Made by a program: the position numbers and the translations under genes. From Hesseltinella vesiculosa (Eukaryota; Mucoromycota; Mucoromycetes; Mucorales; Cunninghamellaceae): a DNA stretch of 64,000 nt. The DNA lies in NCBI GenBank assembly GCA_002104935.1, contig MCGT01000020.1, positions 310,001 through 374,000 on the forward strand, written 5' to 3'. Under the pieces are notes generated by a model. That model did no database searches and was not told where the DNA came from. It saw only the letters and a program-made list of their open reading frames with translations. Below, piece by piece: positions 25,580 to 64,000 of this stretch (positions within the stretch are counted from its first letter, which is position 1; each line of letters opens with the position of its first letter).

Positions 25580-25745
25580 TATGACAATGGAGCAAAAATT
25601 CGCTTCCGTCTTTCAATTGTTGATGGGGAACGACACCGCCAACAAGAAGAATGTGACAGAGAATGACGGCAAGGCCTCGAAGCAGCTTTTACGAGCAGCC
25701 TATGATCCTCCAAGAAGTAACTCGCTGGGGTCTAGAAAAGACAAC
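25580..25745 (+). pseudogene. Fanzor fragment (central domain only)
   Basis: The peptide QKFASVFQLLMGNDTANKKN followed by KQLLRAAYDPPRSN aligns by eye with FFTSVFQLLMGKAVTNTR and FRTEYGPPGNQP in the Fanzor copy 1 kb downstream. It is a fragment with no knuckle or RuvC part around it. Frame stays open to 25859 but similarity fades after about 25745. Best read as a decayed remnant of an older insertion of the same family. Confidence 0.55.
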
Positions 25746-26219
25746 AGGTTAAAAAAAGAGACATGGGGTCAAACGAAAAGAATTAAACAATTAGTTGAAA
25801 ATAAGAGGAGGGTGACAAGTACTTTTACAGTAGGAGTGAACGAAAGGACTAAGATATGAACAAGGAACGTAAAGAGGATATAGAAAAAGCGTCTTTGCTG
25901 AACTAAAATAGCTACTGAATAAAAACCATCTGATTACCAATGCTGTACGCGTGTAGCTGGCTGCTTTACTTTTTTTCTCACTCCGATGTTCCTTTCTATA
26001 TTTTTCTTTTTCACTTTTCATTCATCCCTTTTTCCCAAGCTTTCAAGATTTGTTTGAAATGACGATTGAAACGCACAACTTTAAACAAAGAATGTTTAGG
26101 AAAAGAAGGATAAGACTAGAACTTCAAGAAGCAAGCGAAGCGCAAAGCGCAACGCGTAAGCTATTCAAGATAAACAATACAAAGATCTGATTCACATGAG
26201 GTTGTCTAGATTCAGGATC

Positions 26220-29200
26220 AAAACGTCAAAGAACAGGAAGATCAAGAAGCACTGTAAAACGAAAGCAAAGTGCTGACGAAAAGAAAGCCAAGCAAGATGC
26301 CAGAGCTGAGTTTTCCGCCCATCTTCCAAAATTTGGCGACCAACGACCCTGTCCAACATGTATGAAAGAAGTGGATAGACTGGAAAAGCTAGGTGATGAA
26401 GCCTCCTTGGCAGCCGCCGAAATCCGACGCCGGACCGCACAAACGCATTCCAGAGCCTCCAGCCACCGCTGCCCCTCGCACAAGTCCACCAAACGTGTGT
26501 TGACAAAGAGAAAGCTTGGCGGGACCACGCGCCAGCACACTCTGAAGCATGGTCTTGCAAATCTCATAAAGCATCCAGCCAATGATGCCCTTGACTCCAC
26601 CGCGCCATCTACGTTCATCTCTGCCGTCAGGTCGCTGGCGTCTCACAACCGAGACATCGTCATCCTCTCACACTTGTTCCTTCGCCATTTTGTGACGACA
26701 CTGTTGCGTCGACCAAATGATAGCCTCCCACCTGCCTTGTTCGACCAAGTTTTCTTCACCTCTGTCTTCCAGCTGCTAATGGGAAAAGCTGTGACGAACA
26801 CAAGAACCTTGTCGCAAGAATTACGGGCAGACCTGACCTCGGCATTTGCTACATTTCGCACAGAGTATGGTCCACCTGGAAACCAGCCATGGTGCCCACC
26901 CGTCGGGTCCCCTGTTGGCCGTCGCCCAGTGACGTTTTCCGGTGCACTCTCATCGACAGCTATGCAATGCGCAAAGGATTGGAAGAACCATATTGTGGAA
27001 GGAATGTCACAATGTCTTGTGACTTTCATGTCAGCAAAGCTACTGCGTTTTAGTCCCAGTAATGACGTTTTATAGTGGAGGCAGAAAAAGAAAACGCGGT
27101 TCTGATTTTTTTTTTGTGAGCAGGAACTGAAAAGTGGACAGGCCCGAGCTTATGCTTTATACATCTATGATCGCATTGCCCAAGACCCAAAATTCGAACC
27201 CGAATTACCTGACTATGCCTCAATGGATTCACGTTTGAAGGAAAAAGTCCAAAGCAAATTTAACCTGATCATCAATGACTGCCATGCGCTACTGGAGCCG
27301 GCCATTCGGCAAATTCAAGAAGATCTACGAGAACGGCAAGCGCTGGCCGAAGAGCGCCAACGAAAGCAAACGTTTGAGCAAGCAAGCTGGGAAGCTACTG
27401 CATCCACCCAACCTGCCACAGCCTCCTCCTCGCACAACACGCCTACTGCCCCTTGGATCCCGCTTGAACCGGTGGCGTCTGATGATCTAGACGGTGATGA
27501 CGACATGATGTCCCTTGATACAGCATTGTCAGTCTCAGCAACAATCCGATTTGGTGGCTTGAACTTGCAATCTGTAGCTGCTTCTGACTCTGATGTTAGT
27601 AGCAATGCTGGCAGTGCCCCGGACGACCAACCTGCCCTCTGCATTGCTGATGGTGACAACAATGTTATGCTGACGACTGCCACGTATGCTGGATGGCCAC
27701 ATTTATTTTTACCCGTCATGGCAAAGATATTAGGCACGCTTGAGATGTGGAACTAAGCCGACGAAGAGCAGCCAGCAAACAACCAGAAGGAAGCATCGCT
27801 CAGTTGGGTACGGCATGAATTATCACAAATACCTGGTTGGGCAAAACTTGGACACCAGAAACGAACGCGACTTGTCTCGGCCATTGCAAAGTTAATCAAC
27901 AGCCAGTCGGCCCGTTTTGATGCCAACAAACTCCCGCCTGCTTTTGACGCCAATTCTCGTACCATGGTGAAAGACACTGTGGAAACTGCAAAGCAGCAAT
28001 TGGCCCAAGACTGCTTCAAGCCGCCCGCTTGCCTCTTCAGTCCCCCGTGCCGCATGTTTGCCTTGCTTCCTGTTCCTAGCTTCCGACTTCGCTATGTCCG
28101 CATCAACGCTTCCACAATGGGGACCCTTTTGCATCATTTTGGCCTCCACCACCTGCTTCCACAGTCATCGTCAAGCAATGAAAACCAGCCTGGAGCTCTT
28201 GACGCTCCTCACAAGAACTTCGGCCTGCTTGACATGACAAAGTTTAAAAAGTAAGTAGGGGTGGGAAGGGAAAGATGGTACTCATTCTTAATTCTTCTAT
28301 TTAGCCAAGGGGTGTTCGAAGACTCTCTGATGTCTGACGGGTGCACAGTCTCAGCAACATTTAAAAAACTGAAGCCTGTTAATCAAGAAGCGCCCCTCAC
28401 TTTGGAAGATATCGATACCGACGACCTGTCTGAGTGCAGAGTATGAGGTGTTGACCCTGGTGTTGGACAAGTATACGTTGCTGTTGACGGTTCCGATACA
28501 TCGATCTACGACAATGAAGGAGCTATAGCCTCTGACCCCCGGCACGAAATACGCCGCTACTCCTCCAAGGAATACTTCCACGACGCAGGCTTCCACAGGA
28601 CCAACCAACGGATCCGTGACCTCAAGTCTCAGCATGGCATCGACACCTTGGAAAGCGCGATCCCCTCCCCCTGCACCATGGACCTATCAAAGTTGGATCT
28701 GTATACGAAGGCTGTCCTGGAACGAGCTCAGCTACTGAAAGATTTTTACGCTGAACATCTGCCACCTCTTCGATTCCTGAACTACAGAGGCCGCCAGAAA
28801 GCTGATGGGGAACTCGTCAATATCTTCTTGACGGGCGGTAACAAGTATGGACGACAGAGCGACCGCGAACTGGTAGATCTTACTGTGCCAGAAGGAAATG
28901 TGTCAATGCAATCTCCTCAAGAAGAGCAAGTTGATATGGACGCCTATGAGCATGATGGCCCACATGCTACTGCTACGTCAGAATCCGCACCCCCTTTGGC
29001 CTTGTCACCTGTCCTCTCCGCTCCACTGCATGCAACATCACAACCAAGCGTGGGCACCAACCCAACAAGTCGCGCCACTGCCAGTGCCACTGCACATGGC
29101 GCTATCGCTATCGCTATTGCGGAAGGCTACGCCCCTTCGATCAGAATTTCTATCGATAATCCCCAGCCCCAAGAGCCAATGCAAACCGGGACCCGAGCGA

Positions 29201-30179
29201 CAACAACCTTGCAGCAAGTTACTCCTGCGATGCCATTGATCTCTACCCAGCCTTCAGTCCAAATGGGCCGTGGAAGTGCCACTAGCATTGCAGCTTCACA
29301 AAACGCGATTGCCATTGCCATTGCTGGCAACCGTGCTCCCTCGATCAACATATCCTCTGGTAGCAGCACGTCACAAGTCTCTTTACCGATTGAAAATGAC
29401 AATCCTTCGGTGTCAATCATTGGCACGTCTTCTGAGCCCAGTGTTGCTGTAGATGTGGGTGACACTGCATTCGCCTTGGCCTCGACCTCACCGCTGTTCT
29501 TACAGTCAATGATCGATTCGTCCTCCCGCCGGCGTAGCGAAACTGCTCCAAGCCCAGGTGCACCTCAGAGTTTCGCAAATGATCCTGATGTCTTGACCAA
29601 CGTGAATACCCCACCACCCCTTCCTCGGTATGTTTTGATGTAGTGCAGCCTTGAACGATAACTGATATATTTTATAGACAAAAATGGAGGAAGCAGGAAT
29701 TTGTTGCAACACCAAAGAGCAAGGTAACCCTGGTTTGCTTGGGTGATGGCAAATTTGGTCGTCGTTCGTTTCGAGGCCATCCCAGCGGCCTGGCCGCCCG
29801 CTTGAAGAAGCTGCTCCAAAGAGCAGATCGAGAAGATCGACTGGTGTTGTTGTCCACGGACGAAAAGTGGACATCTCAAGTGTGCAGCAAGTGTGGCCGT
29901 CAAGGTTGCAAGCCCATTGAAATTGCTGGATCAAACCTGCACTCTGTCACTGTGTGCCAACACTGTGGACAGATGTGGCAGCGCGACTGCAATGCTGCGA
30001 GGAACATCCTGTCTGTTGCGCGTCTTGCCATCGAAGGTGCCTCCCGTCCCCAAGTCCTTTCTCAGAAGGTAACCGATCAAGACGGTGACGTCCAAGGTGC
30101 ACCCAATGACCCCGACCCGATGGACAACCCTCCTCCTACCGCTTCCCCCATTGTACATAATGAAAATGTACAAGTTTAG
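26220..30179 (+). pseudogene. Fanzor (eukaryotic TnpB-like nuclease), nonsense-mutated copy A
   Basis: Long homologous reading in several exons. A basic N-terminus leads to the zinc knuckle RPCPTCMKEVD...HSRASSHRCPSHKS (about 26345-26485), the helical domain with FFTSVFQLLMGKAVTNTRTL, an intron near 27062-27123, and further helical sequence. FALLPVPSFRLRYVRINAST and an intron at 28252-28305 follow. The RuvC-I block is GVDPGVGQVYVAVDG (Asp codon 28453-28455). After FLNYRGRQKADGELVNIFL comes a low-complexity insert of more than 250 residues, then LVCLGDGKFGRRSFRGH, STDEKWTSQVCSKCG, a second CQHC pair, and QRDCNAARNIL carrying the last catalytic Asp. Two in-frame stops break it: TAA at 27754-27756 and TGA at 28444-28446, directly before RuvC-I. 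Homology of the frames on both sides of each stop is clear. RNA-guided DNA cleavage is the family activity; this copy looks dead. Confidence 0.82.
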
Positions 30180-30780
30180 GGCTTTCCCGTAAGTGTGTGT
30201 GTTCTTTTTTTTGGACGAACGACTCACCATCCTCTCACTCTTTTCTCCACCTATCTGGTGCTATCCCATTACTTGGTGAGTGCAATATCTAATTGGCCGT
30301 CCTTTCTAAGCTGACTCGGTTTATTCCTTCTTTTGTAGCCCCCTGTACACTTTTCGCTTTTTTGAATTGTGTCTTTCTTTTTGGAAATACAGTACTATGT
30401 ATACCAGATCATCAAACGAGTGGCATATGTGTTCAGTCGTGCATTTCATTCCAAAAGTATAAAAGGCGTCTTCCACCCGCTTTCCTGATTGCAAGACCCA
30501 TTTTTTCGTGCCACCCATTTGACAGCTGCCAGGTATTATTTGAGCTATGAATAAATACAGGTGAACCAATCAGACGAATTTCTAAATCATTTTCATGTGC
30601 GCTAGAAAGTAAAATCAAAGGCGCGAAAAACCAAACTCAATGCAAATGCATGATAGCCAGCTTTCCAGCCTTCCATCTGCTATCTGTGAGAGCTTCAGTT
30701 TTACCTGAAGTTTATTTCTCACCATTTTGTGCTGGCATGCAAAAATTGGGGTGAATTTACTTTGAGCTTTTTTGTACTGT
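30180..30780. other. Downstream flank of Fanzor copy A
   Basis: Non-coding on present evidence. In related systems the guide (omega) RNA is encoded at or beyond the 3' end of the nuclease gene, so this is where a guide RNA would be sought. No stem-loop was confidently found by eye. Confidence 0.3.
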
Positions 30781-31516
30781 GATTTTTGATCAGATCGCCT
30801 GGCGGTCCCCTGGCGAAAATGGCCGATTTTTCATGTTTTTAAGCTGAGGAAGCGGATGTGTCAAAACGAACTTGATCAAAAGTTGGCTTAGCAACCTTCA
30901 CCAATCGACATGATTTTTTCAGTATCATTATCATTCATGAATTTACATATTCTCCAAAACTCTCGTAATGATTGAATTACTCAAAAGTGCTGTGTAGCGT
31001 TGCTTTTTTTTTTTCAAAGTGAGGAAAAAAAAGTAGATCACCATATTCAGTCTCCGCACAGCTCCTTCGATTTCTGGCTGGTGCCAACCTTCTCCAAGAC
31101 AATCCAAAAATCCAAAATACCGACTTTATGAATAAACACCATCAGTGCCATAATCATGCCGTACTTGGTGGCGCGATCCAACTTGTACAAGAGAACATCT
31201 ATTTTCCCTGATCATCAATCTTCCACCTGCATGCAAGCCCAGGAATCGAAGGCTCTGTGCGGAGACTGAATAGGGAACCTACTTTTTTGTCCTCACTTTG
31301 AAAAAAAAAAAAAAAAGCATCGCTACACAGCACTTTTGAGTGGTTTGATCGTTGTGACATTTTGAGAGAGTGTGCAAATTTATGAATGATGATGGTATGA
31401 AAAAAATCAGATCGATTGGTGAAGGGTGCTCAGCCAACTTTTGACAAGTTTCGTTCTGACACATTCGATTCCTCAGCTAAAAAACATGAAAAATCGGCCA
31501 TTTTCGCCAGGGGACC
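30780..31516. mobile_element. Foldback element, copy 2
   Basis: The left arm at about 30804-31090 and right arm at about 31233-31516 are reverse complements (left CCTGGCGAAAATGGCCGATT, right AATCGGCCATTTTCGCCAGG). They carry the same markers as copy 1: CAGTCTCCGCACAG, CAGCACTTTTGAG, and a T/A run in each arm. The loop is about 140 bp and contains GTACTTGGTGGCGCGATCCAACTTG, related to the copy 1 loop in shortened form. The outer segment TGATTTTTGATCAGATCGC is present left of the arm in both copies but missing to the right of copy 2, so the right end is probably truncated. Confidence 0.78.
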
Positions 31517-32415: not shown

Positions 32416-34452
32416 ATGAATATGGAAACTGATCAGTACACGACACATATTGTTATTCGGCCTCTACCTCGACGCCTTCAGCAGCAACTGACGTTGGACG
32501 ACTACGTGCAGGTTCAGAGCCTAGTTGAATATACACTTGATCAGCAACAAAAGACTACTTCTGACAATACCCTTGCTCAACAGCGACTCCTCCATGCCTT
32601 GCACTTGATTCGCATGTTGAAACTTGAATATCGACGCCAACGTGCTTGCCAAGTGGACCGCATCTTTCGACACCATCAGCAGCAGTGCCACACTATTGAT
32701 CGTGTATGCATGATCTCAGCCTGGGAACAGCGACGCGCTCAGCATGCATTCAACACGTTTGTGGAGCAGCACCGCCAATCACTTTCTGATGCCACCCCCC
32801 AGGCTATTGCTCATGAATCGAAGCGCGTCCAACTCAGCAATCAACAGCATGCTGTCTCTTCCGGTGAGGTTGACGCTCACATCACGACGCCTCCTCAAGT
32901 GGAACGAAGCGAACAGGCTCAGCCTCTTCCAGTGACCGACCAGGCTGCCGACGACGAATATGACGACTATCAGAGTGAACAGCTTGGCGACTTTCTCAGG
33001 ACGATCTTTGACCGGCAAAACGAACATGCTCAACAGGAGCAAGCCGAAGAATTGTATGAGCCCATCTATCGCCAGGCAACCCCTCACCAGGCAGACGACG
33101 ACAGAAAAACGTTGGAAGACATCCTTCCTTTGCTTCATGATGTCCCCCGGGAATCAGCCAATGGTATCGGGAATGTAGCCACCGAGGATGCCAATGCGTC
33201 AACCGCCGAGGCAAAGAAAGGCGAAGAGGCCGAACGAAAGCGCCGTCTCCATGAACAGCAAGAGTCTGACCGTCAGCGCCGCCTGCTTGAACAGCAAGAA
33301 GCTGAACGTCAACACCGTTTCCAAGAGCAGCAAGAAGCTCAGCGCCAACGCCAGCTGCAGGAGGAAGCTGAGCGCCAGAGCCGCCTGCAGGAAAAACAAG
33401 AAGCCGAGCGCCTTCGTCAAATCAAGGAAGAGCAAGAAGCCAAACACCAGCGTCGGATGCAACAGCAACAAGAAGAGGAACGCCAGAGCCGCCTGCAAGC
33501 CGAACGCCTTCGTCAAATCAAGGAAGAGCAAGAAGCCGAACGCCAGCGCCAGTTCCAAGAGCAGCAAGAAGCCGAGCGCCAGCGCCAGATGCAACGGCAA
33601 CAAGAAGCCGAACGTCAGCGGCTAATCCAGGAACAGCAAGAAGCTGAACATCGACGACAGGTCGAGGAGCAACACGAAGCTGACCGGCAACGTCGACTTC
33701 ATGAAAAGAAGGAGGCCGAGCGACATCGCCGGTTCCAGGAACAGCAAGATGCCGAGCTCCAGCGCCAGCTTCAGCAAGAAAAGGCCGCCGCCATGGGTGA
33801 AGACAGTGACGATGATGGGCCCTATCTTCCCGACCACGTACTTTCGCTGGAAGACATGCTGAAGAATCTGGCCGAGGATCCTAGTCCAATCCCGAAATCT
33901 GCCCACCCCAACCATGCCAAGCCCTCATCCGCTCATAAAAAGGAAGACACCTGCCCCACCCCTCCTGTCGTTCCGCCTCCCAAATCAGCTCAAGACCAGC
34001 CGAATGACCAGCGCGTGGTGGAGCTCAACAAGATTGAGCAGCAATTGGATCGCCTGGAACGAGAAACCCATCAATTGGCCCTGCAAACCCCATTGGAGTT
34101 CCAGGTCAATGACCAAGGTCATCTATTTTTGGACGGTAACACACACAACAACAGGCTGTTCCTCAAGTATGAGGATGATATCACGCGTCTCATGCTACAG
34201 TTGGACAACATCCTGTCAGATGGAAATCCTGTCATTCGCACCCGTCGACGCACCATTGTTCAAAAGGCCGAGCATCTTCTGGATCAGCTCGATCGCCACC
34301 GTCAACAAGAATGGGAAAAGGAAACCAGGCGTCAGGCTGCCCTCAAGGAATCCATGGGTGGTGCTATGAATCATCAAAAATTGGCCAAGACTCCTCTAGG
34401 CAAAAAGCATCGACAAAAGAAGCGAAAGCAACGGGTCCCGATCACTGCATAA
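32416..34452 (+). CDS. BAG-domain co-chaperone with long charged coiled coil
   Basis: A single exon of 678 residues. The N-terminal third is Gln/Arg/His-rich and helical. From about residue 270 to 455 it is a near-continuous array of a 13-residue motif of the form RQRRLLEQQEAER, predicted to be one long coiled coil. A short acidic linker (GEDSDDDGPYLPD) and Pro-rich hinge follow. The C-terminal BAG domain is at about residues 535-640: ELNKIEQQLDRLERETHQL, LFLKYEDDITRLMLQLDNIL, IRTRRRTIVQKAEHLLDQLD. BAG domains bind the Hsp70 ATPase domain and act as nucleotide-exchange factors. The tail is Lys/Arg-rich (KKHRQKKRKQR), possibly nuclear. The repeated DNA causes leucine-rich shadow frames on the - strand. 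Confidence 0.85.
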   Translation: MNMETDQYTTHIVIRPLPRRLQQQLTLDDYVQVQSLVEYTLDQQQKTTSDNTLAQQRLLHALHLIRMLKLEYRRQRACQVDRIFRHHQQQCHTIDRVCMISAWEQRRAQHAFNTFVEQHRQSLSDATPQAIAHESKRVQLSNQQHAVSSGEVDAHITTPPQVERSEQAQPLPVTDQAADDEYDDYQSEQLGDFLRTIFDRQNEHAQQEQAEELYEPIYRQATPHQADDDRKTLEDILPLLHDVPRESANGIGNVATEDANASTAEAKKGEEAERKRRLHEQQESDRQRRLLEQQEAERQHRFQEQQEAQRQRQLQEEAERQSRLQEKQEAERLRQIKEEQEAKHQRRMQQQQEEERQSRLQAERLRQIKEEQEAERQRQFQEQQEAERQRQMQRQQEAERQRLIQEQQEAEHRRQVEEQHEADRQRRLHEKKEAERHRRFQEQQDAELQRQLQQEKAAAMGEDSDDDGPYLPDHVLSLEDMLKNLAEDPSPIPKSAHPNHAKPSSAHKKEDTCPTPPVVPPPKSAQDQPNDQRVVELNKIEQQLDRLERETHQLALQTPLEFQVNDQGHLFLDGNTHNNRLFLKYEDDITRLMLQLDNILSDGNPVIRTRRRTIVQKAEHLLDQLDRHRQQEWEKETRRQAALKESMGGAMNHQKLAKTPLGKKHRQKKRKQRVPITA

Positions 34453-34958
34453 GTTCACATTTTTTTTTTTTTTTTTTGCAAATAAAAATGCATGTTTCTC
34501 CTTTTTGAACGTTCAGCAAGGGTATTGGCTAGGATGTAAAATTTTTTTTTTCACAGCAGCCCTTTATTTTTTTAATTGCTTTGTCAACAAGTCGAGTGGA
34601 TAGCACGAAGCAAGGCGTCGCAAATACATGCTCACTTTTTTTTTAAGGTCTTCACCGAGTCAATGTAGGACAAAGAAGGCTGGAAATGATACCATTCTCC
34701 TCGAAATTCTTATTCATCAATTGCTTTCATTCGTAACTGGTCGATCAAATGTGAGCTCCGCAGGAAAAATATTTTGCTTTGCTTGGGGGGGGGTCGCAAA
34801 CTTTCCCATCTTCTTTCTCCATTTTTCCACTCAGTATCTTATCTCGACCGATTCTCTCCTCCTTTTGCAAAAAAAAATCTAATCAAATCTCATACTTTGG
34901 CACGATCAAGAGGTCGCGATATACCCTTTTTGGCACACAAGAAAAAAAAAAGAGAGCC
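34453..34958. other. Intergenic
   Basis: T runs at 34460-34477 and 34542-34550; G8 at about 34785. Nothing coding is supported; serves as 3' flank of the BAG gene and promoter of the HPP gene. Confidence 0.5.
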
Positions 34959-35961: not shown

Positions 35962-36085
35962 ACTTTAAATTTTGTTACATTATTTTACGAATACCGTCCT
36001 CCTCTCTCTCTTCATAAATTCCCAGTTCTTTTTTTTTTTTTTGTTTGTTCTTGCCCACTTTCTTTTCTACCGCTTTTTTCTGAAT

Positions 36086-37670: not shown

Positions 37671-37720
37671 AAACATTGACGTCAAGAGCTACGTCATCGG
37701 TTGCTTCCCTTTGCTTGTGA

Positions 37721-37726
37721 AATAAA
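37721..37726 (+). terminator. Poly(A) signal AATAAA
   Basis: Canonical signal about 50 bases after the neurochondrin stop codon. Confidence 0.5.
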
Positions 37727-46847: not shown

Positions 46848-48316
46848 ATGCCAGTGACCGTAGACGCGTTGGAAAACAAGGGCTGGTATATCAATCAGGA
46901 TGGCCTTGACCTTGTAAATGAGCAAGCCTCACCAAACTGTACCATGGATGAATGGGTGGACATGGCCAAAGATGTAAGGTCGGCCGCTTTTTTTTTCCCT
47001 TTTTTATCGTTCTCTACTTTGCATTATTCACTCTGGGATCCCCTTTTTTTGTCTAGATGGACCTTCGGGAACTGGCAGACAAGGGATTTCGCAAGGATGA
47101 TTTAACCAAGGTCGAAACTATACCTTCGCCTTTAGTACTGCAGGTCCTTCAAGTCCAGAATGTCACGGTGCCAAGCATCCACCAGTACATGGAAACCCCA
47201 CGCCTGCTTCGATTCACTTTCACCGACGGCAGCAAAAAGAAATGGGTTGGTGCTGAAATTTTGGGCCGCGTCGAGGGCCTGTCATCGAAAACCCCCCCAG
47301 GCACGAAAGTCTTGGTCACACAGCCCATTGCGATACGCGAACAAGTCATGATCCTCGGACCAGGAATGCTGAAGCCGCTGGGTGGCCAAGTGCACGAGCT
47401 GATTCAGGCTTGGAAAGCTGGTAAGCAGTTCATCCAGCGTTCAAAAACAACCGCAGAAACCGATGACTGTCCGCCTCCATTTATTCCATTCAAAATCAAA
47501 GTAAAGGCTACGAAGAATAGCTTGACATGCCTCGATGCTCACTTTTTTTTCTAATAGACAGCACCGCCTGCCATGAAAAAGACATTCAGCAACGATCCGA
47601 GCGACAAACCTGCTAGCACCAAGGATAAAAAAGACAAGGGCAGGAAGCAGAAGGAGGCTCAGCCTGCTGCCGACAAGGACGATAAACGGGGCAGCGACAA
47701 ATCCAAGAAAGACAGCAAGGCAAAGGGCACGCCCAGCGACACCAAACCTAGTACCGGCAAACCATCCAAAGGCAAGAAGCAAGACAAGCCAGCCAAGGAC
47801 AAGCAGGACAAGCCAGCCAAGGACAGGCAGGAAAAGCCAGCCAAGGACAGGCAGGAAAAGCCAGCCAAGGACAGGCAGGACAAGCCAGTCAAGGACAAGC
47901 CAGCCAAGGACAATAAGTTGAAGAACACACCTGACAAGAGAGAAGCTACATCCAATAGTAAGAGACGCCAGCAACAAGCCCCTTCGAAACAGCACCACGG
48001 CGATACCTCGTCAGCCGAATCAACAAAAAAGCCATCAACGCCTCGTAGCAACGACAACGATAAGACGAGACAACAGCGGCGGGACCAACCCAAGGAAAAG
48101 CTCCCACCTTCGACCTCCTCCATAGATCGTGCCATTCAATCCATTGAACGAGCTTTCCATTCCACCCAGCAGCCTACCTCTGACCAAGGCCAGCATCCAC
48201 AGCAAGAGACAAATAATCGTGGACGCGGTCGAGGGCGCGGTCGCGGACGTGGTACTAGTCGTGGCCGTGGCCGTGGTCAGGGCCAGAGCGATTTACCACC
48301 TTCCCTATCAGCTTAA
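46848..48316 (+). CDS. RMI1/TDRD3-type OB-fold protein with Lys-rich repeats and RG tail
   Basis: Three exons. N-terminal DUF1767/OB part: NKGWYINQDGLDLVNEQASP, WVDMAKD-MDLRELADKGFR, SPLVLQVLQVQNVTVPSIHQ, PRLLRFTFTDGSKKKWVGAE, SKTPPGTKVLVTQPIAIREQ and ILGPGMLKPLGGQVHELIQA. This is the fold used by RMI1 and TDRD3 to bind topoisomerase III. A disordered tail follows with tandem KPAKDRQE/D repeats (about 47786-47910). The end is an arginine-glycine block (NNRGRGRGRGRGRGTSRGRG). The RG block points to an RNA-linked, TDRD3-like role with TOP3B more than to RMI1; no Tudor domain is seen. Introns at about 46977-47056 and 47502-47557. Stop 48314-48316; AATAAA at 48418. Confidence 0.8.
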
Positions 48317-52134: not shown

Positions 52135-53139
52135 AATAGCTGGATTGTTTGCAGAAAAAAAAAAGAAAAAAAAATGGAGCAGCTACTTTCCAGCGTAATC
52201 GGACTGCGAAATGCTTTTGGCTGGAGGTCGGAGGCGCCAAAGCCGAACCTTTATCGGTCGACGCGAGTTTTATCAGCTTTTCCACTTTCAAATGTCGTAT
52301 GTTTCAGGATAAATGTGTCGTCTGGGGAAATGAATGCCAAGAGGTGAGGATAGAAAGTCAACGGAGACATAGCCAATAGACCACATTCAAGCTTTTTCAC
52401 CCTGCATGTTTTCAGAACCTGAGCTTTCCTTGATTGACTAAAGGGAAAGAGATTTGGTACTTGGAAGAATATCACTGCACCTCCCTCCATTTGCTGAAGG
52501 ACAAACGCTTTCCGCCCTTGATTTCCAAAAACATTTCATTCCGTGCCCACTCTCAAACTCTCGTTTTCACGTCGATTGAAACTCATCACTTCATCCCTGT
52601 TCTTTTTTCTGTTTTTCGCGTTTTTTTTTCCTTTGTACTTTCGTCCTGATGGGTAAGCGTCGTGCTCAGCAATTATAGGATCAAAAACCTCTGCTAAGCA
52701 TTAACGATGAAACGGAGGCCAAGGAGGCCCCCATTCTTGAAATCCAACGGCACATTAAGGCGAAACTGTAGAATGCCAAGGACCACAGCAAGACCAAGAC
52801 GGAGCTGGACAATGTTTTACGGCTACCATAGCTCGATGGCTAATATCCAAACGAGGGGTTCCATGGGGAAATTTTCAATCAACAACCGTAATACAAAACG
52901 CTGTTGTTTGATAGGAAGATGGTGAAGGTTGTCAAGCATATCTCTGACGTGTTCTGCACCTGCAGAAATACCAGGAAGAGGCGGCCGAACAGATGGGTAG
53001 TTAGTTTGTAACATCAAGCAAAGTTGTTTGACGGAGAAAAAAAAATTATGCAGGACTAGCGGAAGGAAAAGCGTCGTGCTTTTTTTCCCTCTCTTATTCT
53101 CGTTTTTCTTTTATTTCATCATTCCCTATTATTGTATTC
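52135..53139. other. Degenerate sequence upstream of Fanzor copy B
   Basis: A + strand reading at about 52640-52850 (MGKRRAQQL, stop, DQKPLLSINDETEAKEAP, HIKAKL, stop, NAKDHSKTKTELDNVL, stop) stays in one frame across three TAG codons, so it looks like a decayed coding segment. Its family is not recognised. A - strand frame 52823-53017 overlaps it. The ASK1 upstream region occupies the first few hundred bases. Confidence 0.4.
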
Positions 53140-54820
53140 ATGGAACAACAACATCTACCGTTAGGAGCCAGCAAAAATATCATGCAATGTTGGTTTTTGA
53201 TCCATATTAATGTACCAACAGCAAAGCTGATTGAAATGATACGTGATGTAGACCGCTTCGCTACAACTCATCTACTGACACGCCAGCAAGCCATGATCCT
53301 GCTAACGTGGGTGCGGAAGCACCGGAGTGGTAATATGCAATGAGAGTACAACGTCGGCATTGGTATTGACTTCGTTTTTATAACTAGGATTACGTGTTTG
53401 CGAGGCTTGTGGCTCACCTCATCATCAAACATGCCGATCTCGACAATGTCCATTGGATGTCCCTCCATCACATCGTAAATGCAGCTTCTTTTCAGCTTTT
53501 GCATGCTATTTACCTTTTATTTTTGATAGCGATCGTGGCCACAACAAGTTCTGATCGGGATATGATGAACGAGATCAACGATCTTCAGCGTCTTGGCGAT
53601 GAGCAGCTGCGAGAGGCAGCACGAAATCAACACCCGCCTGAAACATGCCCAACCTGCGGTCTTCCTGGCCACTCGCGATCGTCCAACCCTGCCTGCCCAT
53701 TCAGAGCTTTAAGAAAGAAGCAATTCATGGCATCACGTTTGCCTGCCTCTGAAGATTACACTCGCATCCGTAGCTTGGATGCCATTGTCCGACCAACCTA
53801 TCGCAACGTCCTGATCACCAACATTCGCGCCAAGTCCGATTATCTGCGTAGGACAATGACACGGCTACAACTTTTCCTGCTGGATTATGCCACCCATCAC
53901 CCCGATCAAGTCCAGCCTTTTTGTTTACACAGAACGGCTTTTACTTAATGACTCAATTAACACATGGTCACTTGAATGCATTCCTGGAACGGTCCGATGA
54001 ATGTGTGCCAGATCCTGTTCTAACTCACTGGCATGAATTCAACCAAGATTTGATCAACGTCGCCACATATGACACCCCTGGTCATACCACCGTGCTGTCC
54101 ATGGCCTGTAAGCTTCAGGCTTCTGCAAACCGTAATCACATTACGGAGAACTTTGAAGGCCGAATCAAGAAGTTCGTGAAATTTCGCTTTGCTGTTGACG
54201 GTGAGGTAGGAAGCAGATAGAAAAAAAAAGGGACTTGTCCAAACTTGACTGACATCCATATTTTTTTTTTCATTTCTTTGTAGGCACCTCCTTCCAGAAG
54301 CCTTGCTACCATCAAGGATTACGTCTACCAAAACTTTGCCATGGTTACCCGAAATATGGAACCCTTACCTGTGGAAATACCAGAACGACATAGGCCGCTT
54401 ACGGTGCTTGTTTTGAACGAACTATGGGCGATGAAACCTCCACAGTTACCAATGATTACCCAAGAGACGCTGCGTGCGGACCCAGGCCGACATCTACCAA
54501 TTTTACGAAGAGTACTCGACGTATATGATCATTACCGTGCAACTAATGATGATGAAAACGATGTCGAAGTGCCCTCATTCACACTCTTGCCGCTTCCTTC
54601 ATCCAAACCTCGGTTCGTGGACGTCACACCTGAAAACGTCATATCACTCACAGGCTCTCGGCAATCACCAAACATCCAAGTGACAAGATTGCCCCCCTTT
54701 TTGCCCAAGTTACACGTCTTTTGGCAAGTGTTTGCTTTTGAAAAGCTTGGATACCCGAGGTACATGGATAGATGCAGGAGGGATAATGTGGAAAGAAAAA
54801 AACGAGCATTAGGTCGCTAA
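53140..54820 (+). pseudogene. Fanzor family copy B, lacking the RuvC half
   Basis: N-terminal exon MEQQHLPLGASKNIMQCWFL with FATTHLLTRQQAMILLTWVR, then knuckle exon HPPETCPTCGLPGHSRSSNP then ACPFRALRKKQFMA (about 53640-53730). The helical domain follows (RPTYRNVLITNIRAKSDYLR, NGFYLMTQLTHGHLNAFLER, NFEGRIKKFVKFRF), an intron with T10 at about 54210-54285, and VPSFTLLPLPSSKPRFVDVT, matching the segment preceding RuvC in copies A and C. The frame ends at 54820 (KKRALGR) before any GVDPG block. No intact RuvC or C4 finger follows; only scattered decayed reading is seen to 55.6 kb. A one-base frame change near 53935-53950 (...VQPF / NGFYLM) is bridged by either an indel or a tiny intron. It is either a truncated pseudogene or a domesticated N-terminal half. 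Confidence 0.65.
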
Positions 54821-57379
54821 CCTATATCCTTAAGTGAATCTTCACCGGGCATGGTTCGTGGCCATTTTTTTCTGGTGTGTTGAACGGTGTCTTTGTTTGT
54901 TTATTGTGTGATTTTTCTTATTTTCACCAACCCGACCTGGGCCACCAAGGACGTCGCTGGCGTTCACTCTCTGTGGTATTGATTCGCTGGGACGGCGTCG
55001 CAGAGAACTGACCACCTCCTTTGGACAAGGCCATGAATCCTCATGCGGTACCGCCGAATGTCGGGATGAAAGAGTATTGCACCACCAGTCAAGGAGTCAC
55101 CAATTCAACCAGATCTGAATCGTCGCAAGATCCAGGCCCTGCCATCGGTGCCCTGAGCAATATGCCATGCCTATGAGCACAATGGCGGAACATTGGGAGG
55201 GACGAACACGCCAATGACCAAAACCGCCTGATCCGTTGCCATTCGGCAGACTGGTGCACAACAAACTACCAATAATTTTACTTCCGAGTCACCTTTGCTT
55301 TTTACAACACATATCCATGCGATCTCCAAACTTCGAATTATGTCAAAGGCAAACATAGCGAGCAATTGCACAGCTGTCAATATCATCACCAGCTGGATCT
55401 CGGCAAGTACACCCGACGTTGCCGAGACAAGCGTTAAGGACCAAGGAAAAATCGGAAGCAACCGAAAGCGACAGATGCAACGAAAATGGCATAGCCTCGG
55501 TTTGTTGCAAATCAAGGATGAGTATAGGCAACGACGAAATCACGCTTGGGAAAATCTTCGGCGCTTAGCGAACGGACATGCATGAGTTGATGGACCAGAT
55601 TGAAGCGCAAACTTTGGGACCAGTCCACTTGGTATGCACCCTGAAACTCGACCCGAAGAAGACCAGCACCAATGTTGCTCGAGAAATAGAAGCCATGCCA
55701 CTAGTATCGACATGGCAACAGCGCCATGATCATTGCTACAGCTGCCTGTAACTCCGAAAATTGGGCTTGGGAACACCCATCTCGTGTCACTCCAACAAAA
55801 TACCTCGACCCCCTCAGCAGACCAACGTAATACAAAATATGGGCTATTTGCATTATCTCACGCTCTCCTTTTTATGTTATACTCTGCCGCATGCGAGGCC
55901 AGCAAGTTGCCATGTGATTCACGGCTCCCAACAAACAGTGGATGGCCTGCCACTGATTTCGTTCGGTAGATGCCACTGGTTGGTCGAGGATGCCCAACAT
56001 TTTGCGTGGGCACCGCATGTTGGGGCAGAACGAACAACATCAGGACAGGCACTTGTCAACGGACAGCATCCAGCGTTGTGCATGGTTGCCCACAGCCAAC
56101 GAGTTCTGGACCAGCCAGGTATACGGATGGCCCAAAAAATAAAGTAAGAGCTGTGGGTGGGCATATCTATTTGCTATATCCGGAAACTAGAACTGCAGCC
56201 TGTGGTGGGCAACTGTTCGGCCCGTGCGCACGCAAGAGCCAGTCGTCGATCTTTGCCTTGAAGTTCTGCACACTTGCAAATGGTGTGGGATCGAGACTGT
56301 CCGCCGCTGCCAACATGTTCTGGATTCGTTAGGACTGTAAAAGTCGATTACGTCGAGCCCATAATGCGTGAGGTGTTTCGACTTTCGGAGCACCGGTAGG
56401 GACGACTTCGCATGAGATCTTCTAGGGGCGGATATATCCGGTTCTCGCCATCGCGAGAAGCACTCGTGAAGTCACTTAATGGCGTGTCGTGTAGTCTGAC
56501 GAGAATGTTATGGCGTAGCATGACAATATATCTTATCGTGCACCGCGCGATTCTTGAGGGACACTCGGCCCCACCGCTCTTGCGCGCCGCCCCCCAGCTC
56601 TCCCTGCCGCTTCCCTACCTTCTCGCCCCCCCCCACCCCCCCTCCCGAATCACCGCGCACCCATGGCGAAACCCCCCCCCACCACCCCGTGCTAGGTGGG
56701 GACCTCGGTCTGCCGCGGGGCGAGCCCAATTCGTTCGGGCTGCGAGGCCAATACTCGTCGAGACGCTCGCTCAAACATCTGCTACGGTAAGCATATGAGG
56801 CAGGCGATTGCGCTTCGCGTGCTGCGACCCTTATTTTCTATATAATTTTTCTAGGAGCATGGCTGATCGCCGTACTATCACCTCGGACTTATTGGGGTAA
56901 CGTGAGACCATCGCCAGTCTTGCACATACGCCACAATGCAGGGCCCCATCCTTCTATTTTTTTTGTTTTTCGTCTTTGTTTGCGGGCAACCACGTTTCTG
57001 GGGACTCTGGATTTTTGACTTGTGTTAGGCGCGTCGAGTGGCCTGACGTTTGCCCAATCGGCATGCTCTAGCGAAGATCGGGAGTTCGGTCCGAGCTCAC
57101 CCGTCTAATGAATTTCAGAATGGTCGAACTAAATAATATCAACGACGGTTCGTGTCCACCGCTTCGTAAAAAGGGATGCAGAGGAAACAGCCCATGGGCA
57201 GCAAAAAAAAAGTGAAATATCAACAAACCCACGCCTCGCCCATTTCTGAGTTAGTTTTTTTTTTTTTGTTTCACGTTTTCCTCTTCTTTCACCTTTTTTT
57301 TCCACTTCCCAATCCCTGTCATCTCTGCTAGTACTTTTTCGATTTTTACTATTCCTCATCTTACCCTCTACTGTTGAAT
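54821..57379. other. Decayed repeats with a C-rich island
   Basis: No intact gene. At about 54.9-55.6 kb + strand fragments may be the eroded RuvC half of copy B. At 56330 down to 56190 the - strand reads NMLAAADSLDPTPFASVQNF then KAKIDDWLLRA, protein-like but isolated, possibly a gag-type fragment. 56507-57000 begins TGTTATGGCGTAGC and could be a solo LTR, but ends were not established. 56590-56700 is extremely C-rich and is reported separately. Confidence 0.35.
56590..56700. other. C-rich island, G-quadruplex-prone on the - strand
   Basis: C9-A-C7 at about 56626-56642 and C10 at about 56672-56680 lie among GC-rich bases, in sharp contrast to the AT-rich surroundings. The - strand has at least four closely spaced G runs, enough for a quadruplex. 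Confidence 0.6.
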
Positions 57380-57616
57380 ATGGACACCGTACAGGAGCAG
57401 CGAATATACTTGGAAAGTTTGAAAAGAAGGAAAATACAACGACGCGAAGAAGAAGAGCAAAGAGGTAATAAGCGCAGTAAAACAACAAAACTAGATGAGC
57501 TGAACAAATGCTTCATTTCAAAACATACAGGAAGAGTACCTTGCCCAAGATGCGGTGGATCAAACCATAATAATGCAAGATCTCGTCTCTGTCCTTTCAA
57601 TCGAAAGTCAATCTGA
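57380..57616 (+). pseudogene. Zinc-knuckle N-terminal fragment of the Fanzor family
   Basis: The frame MDTVQEQRIYLESLKRRKIQ continues through a basic stretch to PCPRCGGSNHNNARSRLCPF NRKSI and stops at 57614-57616. The C-x2-C...H...S-R-CPF pattern is the knuckle of copies A, B and D. It might be the 5' exon of copy C, but the only GT before the stop (57607) does not join copy C in frame, and copy C has its own knuckle-like block. I therefore list it as a separate remnant. Confidence 0.5.
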
Positions 57617-57688
57617 AGAGTGCCTGGTCTAATTTTTTTTTTTTTTTTTTTTTTTACTGCAGGCTATTTCGGGGTTCCAACGGCAGCC

Positions 57689-60527
57689 ATGGTTCGGCAG
57701 CAGAATAGACAAGGTAGGGCCGCTGGACAAGAGCGGCTTCGTTTGGAGCAAGCCAACCTTGATGTTCCACGCTGTCAACGCTGTATCCTTCCCGATGGCA
57801 CCAATGATGGCTGTCTGCACCATGGCAACACGGCAAGCCACCTGTGCCATGCACACAAGACCAGCATGGATGATATTGTCAGTAACGTCCTTGGTCCAAG
57901 GCACCATAGCTTTGTGCGACGATGTACGTTGAAGCGAACGCTGACTTGTTTTGGTCGAACCCGGCGCCAGCGGCTTTCCGCAAAAATCAAGGTTATCCGG
58001 GAGGTTGAACGCGTAGTCGATCATGTGCGCAACGTGTCAATCAAGGCCATGCTCTTTGTCCAACACCATGTGCTCAAGATGCTCAGTGCCGGCGAACCAA
58101 TCCCTCCAACGCTTGGCATGCAAGGGTACGTGTACGGGGTGATGCAACTTGTCATCGGCAAGCAGGTCACGAACACCAACCCCAACTTGCCTCAGGACAC
58201 CGCGAATGCTTTCCAAGCCTATGTGGAACAATTCGACGCTTCCGGTCTTCCAACTGTTGACCCCCTTCCCGGGTACTCGCAATGCTATGCGCATATGGCC
58301 AAGACTCTGGCAACAACAATTAAGAACTGCCTTACCGAGGCATTTGAGCCTCGCTGCAAGGCATACATAGCATTTAAATTGCGTACCTTGATCTCTCGGA
58401 CTGTAAGTGGGAAAAAAGAGGAGTACAGGAGTGACGATCTCTAATATACTTGTATATATATATGGATGATGCAGGACAAACCAAAAAAGAAGGAGCTCAA
58501 GAAATTGGTGAACTATGTCTATTCCAAGCTATCTGGTGAAGACCCCGCCAATGAGCCAGCCTATGCTCGCCAATCTTGGGAGCGAGCTGTAGCCACAGTT
58601 CTGGAGACAACTTCCCTTGGTCCACAACCAGTAACTTTTGAAAACTTGACAGCCAAGTTTTATGAATACGTCCCAGTGATGTACAAGTTCCTAGGTAAAT
58701 ATACATAGAGCCTAGTCTGCAAGAAGATGACTCATTTTTTTTTAAAAGAGGAAATGGAAGCACACAGCACAGCACAAACTGACCAGCCATCCGAATGGGT
58801 CATTGTTGACGAAGCTGATTCCCAATACTGTCGTGAACTGTTGAGCGCAGTGGATGGATTTGACGATCTTGGACGACGACAAAAAGCACAGGTTCAGCGT
58901 GCCACGCATAAATTCATGAATAGCCCGGCCCTCCCACTGAACTTTGGTCCCCGTATGGAAGACGATATGCGCCAAGCCATCACAGCCTTGATTAGGACGA
59001 CACGCTTTCAACTATCGATGTCCCACCAATACCTGCAAGGCAATGACATGATCGACCCGTCGCTCTGTTTCAAATCCCAGTCAGCCTCGCTCTGTCAAAC
59101 CACAAAAATGTACACCCTCCTTCCAACCCTCCGCTTTACACGCAAGTTCATCACTATGGATCATCAATGCTGGTCCCGAGTATTCTCTCAAGCCGGCCGG
59201 GGTGCAACCACGGCTAGTTGACGACCAGCTGTTTTTAACCCAGCTTGGAGAACACACTCAGCAAGAATCTGACCTCCAGCAAGTCGGGAAGAAGTTCTTA
59301 GTGTTTTGGAAGACGCTCAACTTCAAAAAAGCGAACCTTAGCAAAGTGTAAGTTTGGAAGTGGCAAGGAAAAAAAAAAGTGGTTAGTGCAGACTTTTTAC
59401 TCCGTTTTGTCGATAGCTTTGACACACTAGGCACTTACAACACAGATCTCCCTCCTGAAGAAACCGATATCGCGTTCACCAACTTGATTCGAACGGACGG
59501 TCATACAGTTGAATTCATTTGTTCGAAGAAAGCTGCCGAATTACTCCCTGACTTGGTGATGAGCGATCTGGATGATGAAGACATGGAAGTTTTTAAGCCT
59601 ATGGGTGTGGACCCTGGACACTCGGTGCTTTTTACGTCAATGGATACCAATCGCCAATGCCTCCGACTCACAAATCCTGAATTTTACCATCGCATCGGGC
59701 ACATGCGCCGACGATACACACGCCAGAACAACGCCGAGCAACTTGGCATCAATCCTATCATTTCAAGCCTACCGACCAAGAAAACCGTCTCTGTTTCAAG
59801 GTGGATGGCCTATTGCCGTCAACTATGCCTTTGCCTGCCTTCCCTGACAAATTTCTACGGAAGTGCATTTACCAACGATCGCTTTCTTGCGTATGTCAGC
59901 AAGCAGAAGATACTGGATGAAGCTGTGAACATCTTTGTATCAGACGGTAGGAAATACAGGAAAAGCAAGGCTAGGTAAGCTAGAGGTGTGGCGGTGCGTA
60001 AGTGCAATGGAGCAATATTGCTCATTTTTATTTTTAGGAGGGGTGTGGATGTGGACGACGACGAGAACGACGAGGGCGACGAAGACGGCGAGGATGAGCG
60101 TCCAAATATACCATTGCTTATGCTTGGATCAGGTGTCTTTGGTTTCACTCGCCAAGGGAAAAAAACCCGTATGTCGATCATCCCGAAACTGAAGGCAGCC
60201 GAAAAGGAGGGCCGTCTGCTTGTTTGTGTGGTGAACGAAGCGTACACCAGCCAGGTAATAGTGGCAAGACATGGACGGTAAAAAAAAACGTGGGCTCACA
60301 ATTATCTCTGGTTGTAGGTTTGCTGCTTCTGCCATCACCGATCATTATCCACGAAAAGAGCACTGGATCCACTGACGAACGCTACCTTTGGTCTTTGGGC
60401 TGTCAAGTATTGCCGGGTGTGCAGGACAAACGTGAACCGAGATAAGTCAGCCGCCACCAACATCCTCCACTTGGGCTTGCGTGAACAAGAGCACCTGGAT
60501 CGGCCAGCTGTGTTTTGTCGCCATTGA
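57689..60527 (+). CDS. Fanzor (eukaryotic TnpB-like RNA-guided nuclease), copy C, nearly complete
   Basis: Exons in order: MVRQQNRQGRAAGQERLRLE; knuckle-like CQRCILPDGTNDGCLHHGNT with HLCHAHKTS; helical domain (VYGVMQLVIGKQVTNTN); intron 58405-58473; YVPVMYKFL; intron 58695-58749; KMYTLLPTLRFTRKFIT; VGKKFLVFWKTLNFKKANLS; intron 59350-59415. RuvC-I is FKPMGVDPGHSVLF (about 59602). An acidic linker (DVDDDENDEGDEDGEDE) precedes LLMLGSGVFGFTRQGKKTRM and VVNEAYTSQ joined over an intron (60255-60317) to VCCFCHHR. CRVC and NRDKSAATNIL follow, with stop 60525-60527. The two Asp of the RuvC site and the Glu in NEAYTS are present. One frame change between about 59150 and 59190 is not explained by a normal intron, so the copy may be a recent pseudogene or the read may hold an indel. 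Fanzors cut DNA guided by an omega RNA. Confidence 0.78.
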
Positions 60528-61055
60528 AACCCAAAAAGGTTTTGTGCTTACACTATCAACAGAGTAGATAGCAATGCTCCTGGTGATTATTGTTGGCCCT
60601 CTAGTAAGTCATGAAAAAGCGCGGAGTCAACAAAATACCCACTCATTTTTTATTATTCTATAGGGTATCTTCTCTCAACGCAAATCCATGAATACAGTGT
60701 GCTGACCAATTTCCTCTTTTTTTTTTGTTGCTTCATTCTCGGTATCCCTGCAACTTTTGCTTTTTTCGCGTCATCCCATATTTGACTTTGCGTTGGGATA
60801 TTTGGTAAGCGGTCTGGTATTCGCCACTCTATACTTACCCCTCGTATATCTATTTTTATCAGATCTTTTTGTGACATTTTGTTTCTGTCGCTTACGACAT
60901 TACGTTGTGAATAAAGTTTACACCTTGATCGTGTTATCTCCCTTCCTTTCCCATTCATTTTCATCATAGTTTCACTTTTTGAATTCATTTACAATGTTTA
61001 ATAATATTGCTACTTTTAATGAAAAGAAAAAAATAGGGTGGTTGGGTGGGGAGAC
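60528..61055. other. 3' flank of Fanzor copy C
   Basis: No gene. T10 at about 60718-60728. It is the place where an omega RNA linked to copy C would be expected. Also the 3' flank of the - strand LEA-2 gene. Confidence 0.35.
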
Positions 61056-61997: not shown

Positions 61998-62363
61998 GCT
62001 ATGCTCTCAGCGAGAAAGTTTTTAAGAAGGAAAAAAAAGGTTGAACACTGACACTTTCTTTTGTGTTTTATTCCCCAGGTCAAACAAGTGTCATATCCGT
62101 GGCTATTTAAATTCATATTTGATTCTGCATTATTTTTATTTTTGGACAACCAGTTCATATCAGGATGGCTACTTTCTCCCTGAAAAAAAAAGGCATGAAT
62201 GATAACATGCCTCGGTCGGTGTTTGGACTGACAGCGGATCTTTTTTCTATGGCATAATGTCAACGTCACCATTGATTTTAACACATTTAACATTTTTTCT
62301 GCATTTTAGAAAACTCGGAGCGACTTACACTGCAGGTAAAGAAAAGAGAGGATTTATGCAGAT
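61998..62363. other. Upstream flank of the second LEA-2 gene
   Basis: AT-rich promoter-type sequence; no gene is seen. Confidence 0.5.
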
Positions 62364-62819
62364 CTACATGGGCTGAACAGGGTGAAGTACCACAAGTTTA
62401 TTTTGATGCCCCGTAAATAGAACCGGCTCGGAGTCACATTCTGCAACCACTTTTTCTATAAACTTCACATTACACAAAACATTTATCGCTAGTAGAGCCC
62501 CCATTATCCGTACACCATGGACAGCGGGGGCGGGACATGTAGAAGAAGACGCACATTTCCTTTGCGTCATTAAATGTGCTTGACAATCTTCGTTACCAGG
62601 GTTGTAGGCATGATGGCGCAGGGGTAAAAAAAAATTTTTTTTCACAAATTTGACAATGAAAAAATCACGGGCAAGGTTTCGGTGAAGAACCGTTTCATGC
62701 AATTGATGCTGCAAGCCGAGGCAAAATCTACAATAGGCACAATGCCTCCACCTGTCAAAAGAGATAGTGGGATCTCGAAGTAAGATTGTTAAGGCAGGAC
62801 AAGCTTCCATGCCATGCAC
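62364..62819 (-). CDS. Uncharacterised ORF, 151 codons
   Basis: Open frame with protein-like stretches: AYCRFCLGLQHQLHETVLHR, NLARDFFIVKFVKKN and RIMGALLAINVLCNVKFIEK. Start context and splice structure are not clear, and the block crosses an A9-T9 tract at about 62627-62642. I do not recognise the family. It sits in the repeat-rich end of the window, so a transposon remnant is as likely as a host gene. Confidence 0.3.
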   Translation of the reverse strand: MHGMEACPALTILLRDPTISFDRWRHCAYCRFCLGLQHQLHETVLHRNLARDFFIVKFVKKNFFLPLRHHAYNPGNEDCQAHLMTQRKCASSSTCPAPAVHGVRIMGALLAINVLCNVKFIEKVVAECDSEPVLFTGHQNKLVVLHPVQPM

Positions 62820-63482
62820 TTTTCTGGAATTTTTGACTTTTCATTTGCCTCGAAGCTGACTAGCAAGAATGGGCCAATCAGATGATGCGGGTTTTGTATT
62901 TCGCAATGATTGGTTATGGAAAATTTGAGAAGAAAAAAACAGCGCAACCAATCAAATAGCCAGCTGCATATGCGCTACTAAGCGCACTAACATGATCCGC
63001 TTGCAGAAAAGAATTTGTCGCATCTTTCTGCAAAGCATGTTATTTTTACCACCTTGGATTTATAGACCAAGCATGGTAAGGCATAGGGAGAGGCATGCGT
63101 GAAATAGACAGAATGATATGGATAGTCGCAACTTCTCCAATCTGGAGCATTTTTGTTTAACTGAGGATGACTCTGGGGCCTGAATTTTTTTTTTTCGTGG
63201 TTTGGTTTGCCAGGCAGTGTTAAGTTTTTATTTAAGAAGCACAGTAAAATGAGCAATAGAGATAGGCAAAGAGTGCAACCTATATCATTGATGGTACGCT
63301 ACTTCATTTTATATTTCAAAAAGAAAGGTACGTAGTAAAAAAAGGGCCAAGGATGTGATTGGCGGTCATTCTCGCTGGCATTGGAGGTTTGATCATCCGC
63401 AACACGCGATTCTTTTTTTTGTTTGTTTATCTAGGCTCTTCTATCTTTTTCTTTATTTCTGCTCAATTTCTATCTTTCCCTG
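62820..63482. other. Intergenic before Fanzor copy D
   Basis: AT-rich; the - strand frame 62987-63256 is unsupported. The last 80 bases (CT-rich, 63440-63480) are the likely promoter of copy D. Confidence 0.45.
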
Positions 63483-64000
63483 ATGCAATCGCTTCTTCAA
63501 TCCGTCTACGTAACTCTGTGCCACATCCCTGAAGAAGATTTCCGCCGGGCGTTGCCTGATCAGTTGGGCCAAGCTTGGATGACCACCGAACAATTCTACA
63601 CTGTTTGGTCACAAGCAAAAGTCTATCGTCAAAGTAAGTCATCCATCACTTCAATCATGTCTTTTTCTTTACCCATCTTCGTAGGACGGGAAACTGGGCC
63701 CACGCCACAACGACGTGCCCAACAACAGGAACAAAACGATCGCGCCGAGGGGAGACGGCAGCGCCAAGAAGATGAGCGAAATCCTGATGCTGTGGGACCG
63801 TGTGCCACATGCGGCCAAATGGGACACTGTTCGTCTGCCAGCCGCCTCTGTCCTTACCATCGCATGAACAAGAAGGATTACATCAACGAAATGATGCCAG
63901 GTGGTGAGCGCTACACGATAAAAAAAAGCTTTGAAGATGCCGTCCGGCAGCCTTTCAAGCTCGCTTTGAAGCGCAACATAGAATCGACCAGCGCCTGCAA
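63483..64000 (+). CDS. Fanzor family copy D, N-terminal part, runs off the window
   Basis: Exon 1 reads MQSLLQSVYVTLCHIPEEDF and RRALPDQLGQAWMTTEQFYT, splices at about 63634-63684 (GTAAGT...CGTAG), then gives an Arg/Gln/Glu-rich helix (RRAQQQEQNDRAEGRRQRQE). The knuckle GPCATCGQMGHCSSASRLCP with YHRMNKKDYINEM follows, then KKSFEDAVRQPFKLALKRNI. Exon layout matches copy B, but the family is better preserved here: no stop and a clean splice. The RuvC half lies beyond 64000. Function as for the other copies; whether intact cannot be judged. Confidence 0.7.
   Translation, partial: MQSLLQSVYVTLCHIPEEDFRRALPDQLGQAWMTTEQFYTVWSQAKVYRQSKSSITSIMSFSLPIFVGRETGPTPQRRAQQQEQNDRAEGRRQRQEDERNPDAVGPCATCGQMGHCSSASRLCPYHRMNKKDYINEMMPGGERYTIKKSFEDAVRQPFKLALKRNIESTSAC

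Follow-up and report, generated by a model that had tools for sequence, protein, structure and literature searches.

Fanzor1 genes are already known to reside in DNA transposons (PMC3627910). In the family descriptions of that survey, elements such as PUl-4 carry a Fanzor1 gene without a transposase, have mariner-like (Tc/mariner) ends and are flanked by TA duplications (Bao and Jurka 2013, PMC3627910). The same descriptions include Fanzor1 families of Mucor circinelloides (MCi-2, MCi-4 and MCi-5), Rhizopus and Phycomyces, with MCi-2 present in 11 copies that share a nearly identical 3' part (PMC3627910). The fungus considered here, Hesseltinella vesiculosa, belongs to the same order, the Mucorales, and a stretch of 64,000 nucleotides of its genome (the window; contig C13, positions 310,001-374,000, in an assembly of 27.05 Mb and 85 contigs) very probably harbours three Fanzor1-carrying transposons that would be mobilised in trans and make a guide RNA at their right ends. 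These are element A (25,470-30,392, 4.92 kb), the composite element BC (52,274-60,918, 8.6 kb), which carries two Fanzor genes, and element D, which begins at 62,912 and ends beyond the window, all on the + strand. While the Mucor, Rhizopus and Phycomyces families are listed in the survey as MuDR-like with 9-bp target site duplications, or as unclassified with 6- or 11-12-bp duplications (PMC3627910), the duplications found here are TA and GANN. The elements also differ from the PUl-4 type, as far as the survey characterises it (PMC3627910), in their short imperfect ends, the two-Fanzor composite, a terminal intron-like module and a gene A product of 1,298 amino acids in two copies.

The making of guide RNAs by eukaryotic Fanzors is understood in few cases. 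The best PDB match of our family profile, SpuFz1 of Spizellomyces punctatus, is described in the RNA sections of its report as using a right-end RNA with a flank-derived guide, composed of a contiguous 75-nucleotide scaffold and a guide of 14-15 nucleotides (PMC10432273), whereas the right ends of A, of gene B on its own, of BC and of a further family, E, hold splice-like signals. A second parallel is offered by IStrons, mobile elements that combine an insertion sequence with a group I intron and hence transposition with splicing; their intron is bacterial and self-splicing, whereas the signals found here are of the spliceosomal type and stand near one end (PMC4227781). Neither a two-Fanzor element nor a spliced Fanzor guide RNA was found described in those parts of the Fanzor literature that were searched. 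Within that scope the recurrent element of two Fanzor lineages, as read from the DNA, appears to be new, and so does the terminal intron-like module shared by the A, B, BC and E right ends. If guide RNAs were spliced in this way, the spliceosome would take part in producing them, and the timing of cutting by an element could depend on the intron.

Five families were compared, A, B, C and D from the window and E from elsewhere in the genome. PF07282, the TnpB/Fanzor zinc domain, has 46 matches genome-wide (125 candidates scored); 20 of these sites were fetched with their flanks, and two more lie in the window or at locus L035. The domain is found in all five family proteins, matching the zinc exon of A at 1.6e-11, and BLASTP against the five-sequence database links A to E (1.7e-99), B to D (3.6e-34), C to E (1.8e-26) and A to C (5.8e-19). 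By these scores the families are mutually homologous, as an earlier note on this stretch had proposed. A profile of the five families searched against 26 PDB sequences ranks SpuFz1 (1.3e-11) and GtFz1 (1.8e-10) first and places the TnpB-like L79 behind them at 2.3e-8, which supports their assignment to the Fanzor1 type, nearer to eukaryotic Fanzor1 than to TnpB or Fanzor2. The note's view of repeated, intron-containing Fanzor homologues on a single strand is borne out.

The catalytic residues point the same way. A DPG motif and a shifted glutamate distinguish Fanzors from most TnpBs according to part of a published comparison (PMC10711439). At RuvC-I the families read GVDPG (A, 28,447-28,461, + strand), GIDPG (B), GVDPG (C), AVDPG (D) and GIDPG (E), so that D-P-G is invariant across the five aligned proteins (two copies were combined for the B row); in P0003, the E protein as deposited, this position reads GKDPG. 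The glutamate stands six residues ahead of the zinc finger (ExxxxxxCxxC) in an invariant column, E1111, and the segments concerned, which partly span inferred splice sites, are EKWTSQVCSKC, EFWTSQNCSTC, EAYTSQVCCFC, EFKTSKLCSIC and EAFSSKVCSKC. The four cysteines of the finger (C1118, C1121, C1142 and C1145) and the RD that follows (R1151, D1152) are likewise invariant, and in gene A this whole PF07282 segment (EKWTSQVCSKC ... RDCNAARN) occupies 29,811-30,008 on the + strand. The Fanzor genes retain the D-E-D catalytic residues and the zinc finger. Of the motifs that had been said to be shared among the loci, the N-terminal C-x2-C...C-P knuckle is present by eye in A, B, D and E and has a variant form in C, and the FQLLMG-type block occurs in A, C and E. 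In protein searches, residues 690-1235 of A retrieved three matches, all from Hesseltinella vesiculosa, two of them 96-97% identical and the third 41% identical over 24% of the searched part. A search with D against 5.8 billion proteins gave no match among the 8000 candidates scored.

The Fanzor-type genes of the window lie at 26.2-30.2, 53.1-56.4, 57.4-60.5 and 63.5 kb. The earlier note had counted five related loci plus a loose knuckle exon; the boundaries of the mobile elements reduce these to three. The copy listed at 25.6 kb is a frame inside element A, present in all seven near-full-length copies, those at 53.1-54.8 and 57.7-60.5 kb belong to the single element BC as its two genes, and the knuckle exon at 63.5 kb is the 5' part of a D gene that runs to about 66.8 kb, past the window edge. 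According to DNA searches, other contigs also carry near-identical A, BC and D copies, and each family is therefore dispersed across the genome; the repeated local proliferation suggested previously is not supported.

The termini of A, B, BC and E appear to be short ends of the Tc1/mariner type, and those of D are of another type. The former elements mostly start with TA-CAG, finish with ..ACAG-TA or ..AAAGT(G/T)-TA and carry TGTCGCA-like motifs near their ends. Element A in the window runs from CAGTCTTTC to GGAAATACAG with TA on both sides (25,468-9 and 30,393-4). Six further near-full-length copies, 96.9-98.3% identical to it, also have abrupt ends; TA stands at both ends in four of the seven copies, while the left base is changed in L017, L012 is without a normal left end and L013 without both ends. 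For B and BC, TA is found on the left at five of six sites and on the right at all six; in the window copy, AT rather than TA precedes the left end and the right end GAATAAAGTT is followed by TA. E has TA on the right at nine of nine sites and on the left at four (L010, L019, L024 and L028, of which L019 and L028 have altered first bases); its remaining left sides are not recognisable. The D elements end in CCACTATGGAAAA and show no TA duplication of the Tc1/mariner kind; 4-bp GANN duplications are found instead, exact at four of seven sites, one of them with a damaged left end.

A candidate source of transposase lies directly beside an E copy. This mariner (L019:7362-9095, 1,734 bp) has an open DDE_3 frame of 439 amino acids and ends reading TACACTC(T/C)TTCC-ATGAATAAG, which are similar to the A, B, BC and E ends. 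Two points limit the resemblance. The element ends are imperfect and span some 10 bp, and a core like CA[GC]T[GC]TTTCC is common to elements and mariner over only about 10 bp, with several ends deviating from it; in addition, the exact end 12-mer TACAGTGTTTCC occurs at 8 places against 9 for its reversed control and carries no weight alone. Because the 12-mer is no commoner than its control, the mariner link is one that we infer. Among the matches listed of the 164 to DDE_3 (150 of 202 candidates scored) none lies on C13, other transposase types not having been searched for. The statement that mobility is not explained by any transposase may hold only within the window, the L019 mariner with its similar ends lying beyond it. 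Under the proposed mechanism, a transposase supplied in trans would move the elements, and for A, B, BC and E this would be a Tc1/mariner enzyme like that of the open L019 copy. The Fanzor protein would then bind an RNA from the right end of the element whose last bases are host flank, the complex would cut the matching empty site, and the element would be restored by copying from the sister or homologous copy.

The right ends hold two sets of signals. In six of the seven families examined (C, D, E, L009, L014 and L026), the stop codon is followed by a hairpin that has 5-7 pairs and an A-rich loop, the stems mostly differing between families; such a hairpin occurs in 100 of 4000 random and 56 of 4000 shuffled windows. 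Its bearing on a right-end RNA is lessened by the lack of such a hairpin in family A, by B being outside the seven and by a loop rule fitted after the sequences had been viewed. A 5' splice site motif, GTRAGY, stands within 70 nucleotides of the stop in four of the seven families and within about 80 in six (not in D), while 196 of 4000 random 70-nucleotide windows contain it. Close to the element end, an intron-like module of 62-69 nucleotides unites 5' splice site, branch point and acceptor motifs (GTRAGY, CTAARCTNAC and YAG). In A it reads GTGAGT ... CTAAGCTGAC ... TTTTGTAG (30,276-30,338, + strand) and stands 54 nucleotides before the end. Scanning 291,660 bases on both strands gave 20 matches, all at right ends (8 A-type, 10 E, 1 BC and 1 B) and 44-56 nucleotides before the end in the 18 with a recognised end; five first-order Markov controls gave none. 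The module is absent from D, L009, L014 and L026 and, under the strict pattern, from the window BC, the C59 copy (L030) and one B copy (L061).

Three readings of this module can be weighed. It is possible, if short of probable, that the terminal intron merely belongs to the 3' untranslated region, or lets host transcripts splice across the insertion and so limits damage, with no part in guide RNA making. A and E end in CAG|TA, which would place a possible acceptor exactly at the boundary, and the deposited model P0001, from the C17 copy of A, reads on into the host flank; this reading leaves aside, however, that the module sits in the zone of Fanzor guide RNA making and is kept across four families. 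A second, more tentative reading is that a spliceosomal intron is removed to join a post-stop scaffold to a short terminal exon that enters the host flank, yielding a spliced guide RNA. In its favour are the confinement of the 20 matches to A-type, E, BC and B right ends, the absence of matches in the controls and the excess of GTRAGY after the stop over random windows. Furthermore, P0001 joins the post-stop GTAAGT (30,189-30,194 in gene A, + strand, 12 nucleotides past the start of the stop codon) to the terminal ATACAG before continuing into the flank. On the other hand, the pattern was written after the ends had been viewed, the 20 matches amount to only four families, several families and copies are without the module, P0001 may be a purely predicted model, and the SpuFz1 guide RNA is, in the sections cited above, contiguous and 88-90 nucleotides long (PMC10432273). 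It is unlikely, finally, that GGTAAGT...ACTTACC forms a hairpin within the guide RNA and not an intron: the two motifs are complementary by eye in B and BC, yet in L018, a relative of A (89.6% identical across 2.06 kb in the 3' part), the facing arm is unlike that of A and the GTGAGT, CTAAACTGAC and TTTTGTAG motifs nevertheless remain.

Element BC is, by its sequence, a recurrent element with two Fanzor lineages, and appears to be one mobile unit. B and C adjoin in the same order at eight places (the window, two on C12, and C59, C41, C15, C7 and C62), several of them cut by contig ends. C has 10 matches of at least 94%, of which the two lacking B lie on C2 in inverted arrangement to each other. 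Stand-alone copies of B, at 86%, are found at four further places (C12, C35 and two on C23); both ends are seen at C35 and the right end at one C23 copy. Since B is nearer to D and only 23% identical to C (over 230 amino acids), BC is not a recent tandem duplication. Separate insertions of B and C at a hot spot are very improbable: the four places where B stands without C would fit, but order and a spacing of about 0.35 kb are the same at seven of the eight joint places (0.68 kb in the window), the right end of B itself is not found by BLASTN between B and C in the copy C12a, and a 17-nucleotide deletion marks the matched BC-type copies. This deletion, before RuvC-I of B, was judged on 8 pattern-matched B copies, the window, C62, C26 and others being unmatched; it is present in C7, in two C12 copies and in C51, where a contig end removes the neighbour, and absent from the four stand-alone copies. 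BC would move as a single unit, with C alone still appearing functional.

Gene B (53,388-56,330, + strand) is damaged in the window, where a 1-nucleotide gap near 53,920 shifts its first N-terminal exon, the second (54,284-54,770) is open and the RuvC-zinc part is unreadable. The first N-terminal exon is open in C12a, and the view of B as a relic decayed in every copy was dropped, since the stand-alone C35 copy has an open RuvC-zinc part. Gene C (57,380-60,528, + strand; GVDPG, NEAYTSQVCCFC...NRDKSAATNIL) has a 4-nucleotide insertion near 59,192 that is private to the window among eight matched copies, and its frames are open in C12a. From 54,821 to 57,379 the window copy is noisy and unusually rich in 1-nucleotide indels; at 54,821-56,330 it differs from C12a by 140 substitutions (1405 sites compared) and by 68 gaps. 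Divergence from C12a is 7.1% at 57,101-57,379 and 5.1% at 60,529-60,920, and 0.0-1.9% at 52,269-54,820 (which includes the N-terminal exons of B) and in the C exons. C12a and C59 are 98.6% identical over 5.3 kb, with only 10 gap openings, and for this reason the noisy stretch is probably a consensus error confined to this part of the window contig, the simplest reading and a likelier one than true decay.

That both ideas hold together, namely a spliced guide RNA with a conserved terminal intron and a host-derived guide on the terminal exon, and a BC that moves two Fanzor lineages sharing a single right end, is doubtful at present. BC, with the deletion in its matched B copies, nonetheless offers a natural test of two RNA-guided nucleases that share one right end, and the multi-copy families, whose open and broken members are about 90-99% identical, provide material for such tests. 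On C2 (379462-386292) two C elements lie head to head, fused near the gene start. A distant relative of C (65-66% at the DNA level) occurs at 13 places (C1, C11, C23, C46, C55, C72 and others), several of them a few kb from contig ends, and is perhaps subtelomeric.

Gene A (26,059-30,179, + strand) has inferred splice sites and five approximate exons (26,059-26,155, 26,210-27,058, 27,124-28,250, 28,305-29,627 and 29,678-30,179). Three junctions match the deposited P0001, and the junction of exons 2 and 3 differs in P0002. A model of 1263 amino acids was set aside, its additional intron being needless; read-through as in P0001 gives 1298 stop-free amino acids in the copies L011 and L015. The gene is broken in the window by in-frame stops at 27,754-27,756 and 28,444-28,446 and by one extra base near 27,050; frame or stop lesions are also found in each of L012, L013, L016 and L017. 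Upstream in the same element, a frame of 92 amino acids with the FQLLMG motif (25,581-25,859, + strand) is open in six of the seven copies and shares 14 of 21 amino acids with exon 2 of L018; it is perhaps a relic of a second Fanzor. Between the RuvC parts of gene A, 28,911-29,630 is a low-complexity insert with repeated AIAIAIA..APSI, which gives no indication of purifying selection. Element D, of which 62,912-64,000 lies in the window (+ strand), would span about 62,912-66,981 in window coordinates and has 22 further near-full-length copies (90-99%) in both orientations. Its window copy looks open, a single frame extending from about 63,480 across the RuvC part, with zinc exons beyond the window (splice sites inferred).

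Ratios of nonsynonymous to synonymous substitution rates (dN/dS) suggest that the proteins are constrained over the longer time scale and that constraint is weak among recent A copies. Between A and L018 the ratio is 0.15 for RuvC and 0.25 for the zinc exon, E pairs give 0.16, 0.23, 0.25 and 0.58, and for gene B the C35 copy compared with C12a gives 0.30 and 0.22. Other values count against general constraint: exon 2 of A and L018 yields 0.12 at a dS of 2.7, near saturation, exons 3-4 are saturated, the low-complexity insert stands at 1.5, and recent A pairs give 0.65, 0.50 and 0.28. Within L018 (2316-6820), dS is 2.7 in the 5' half and 0.04-0.3 in the 3' half, a contrast that suggests exchange between elements.

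Several other repeats accompany the Fanzor elements. Behind element A lies a foldback element (30,804-31,516) with inverted arms of 211 nucleotides (84%), and its kin are found at 2.4-3.8 kb and at several loci. An inverted pair of 357 bp, 96% identical and about 680 bp apart, occupies 2,419-2,775 and 3,455-3,810. Coding tandem repeats, K/D/P-rich at 47,779-47,939 and Q/E-rich at 33,227-33,772, are also present.

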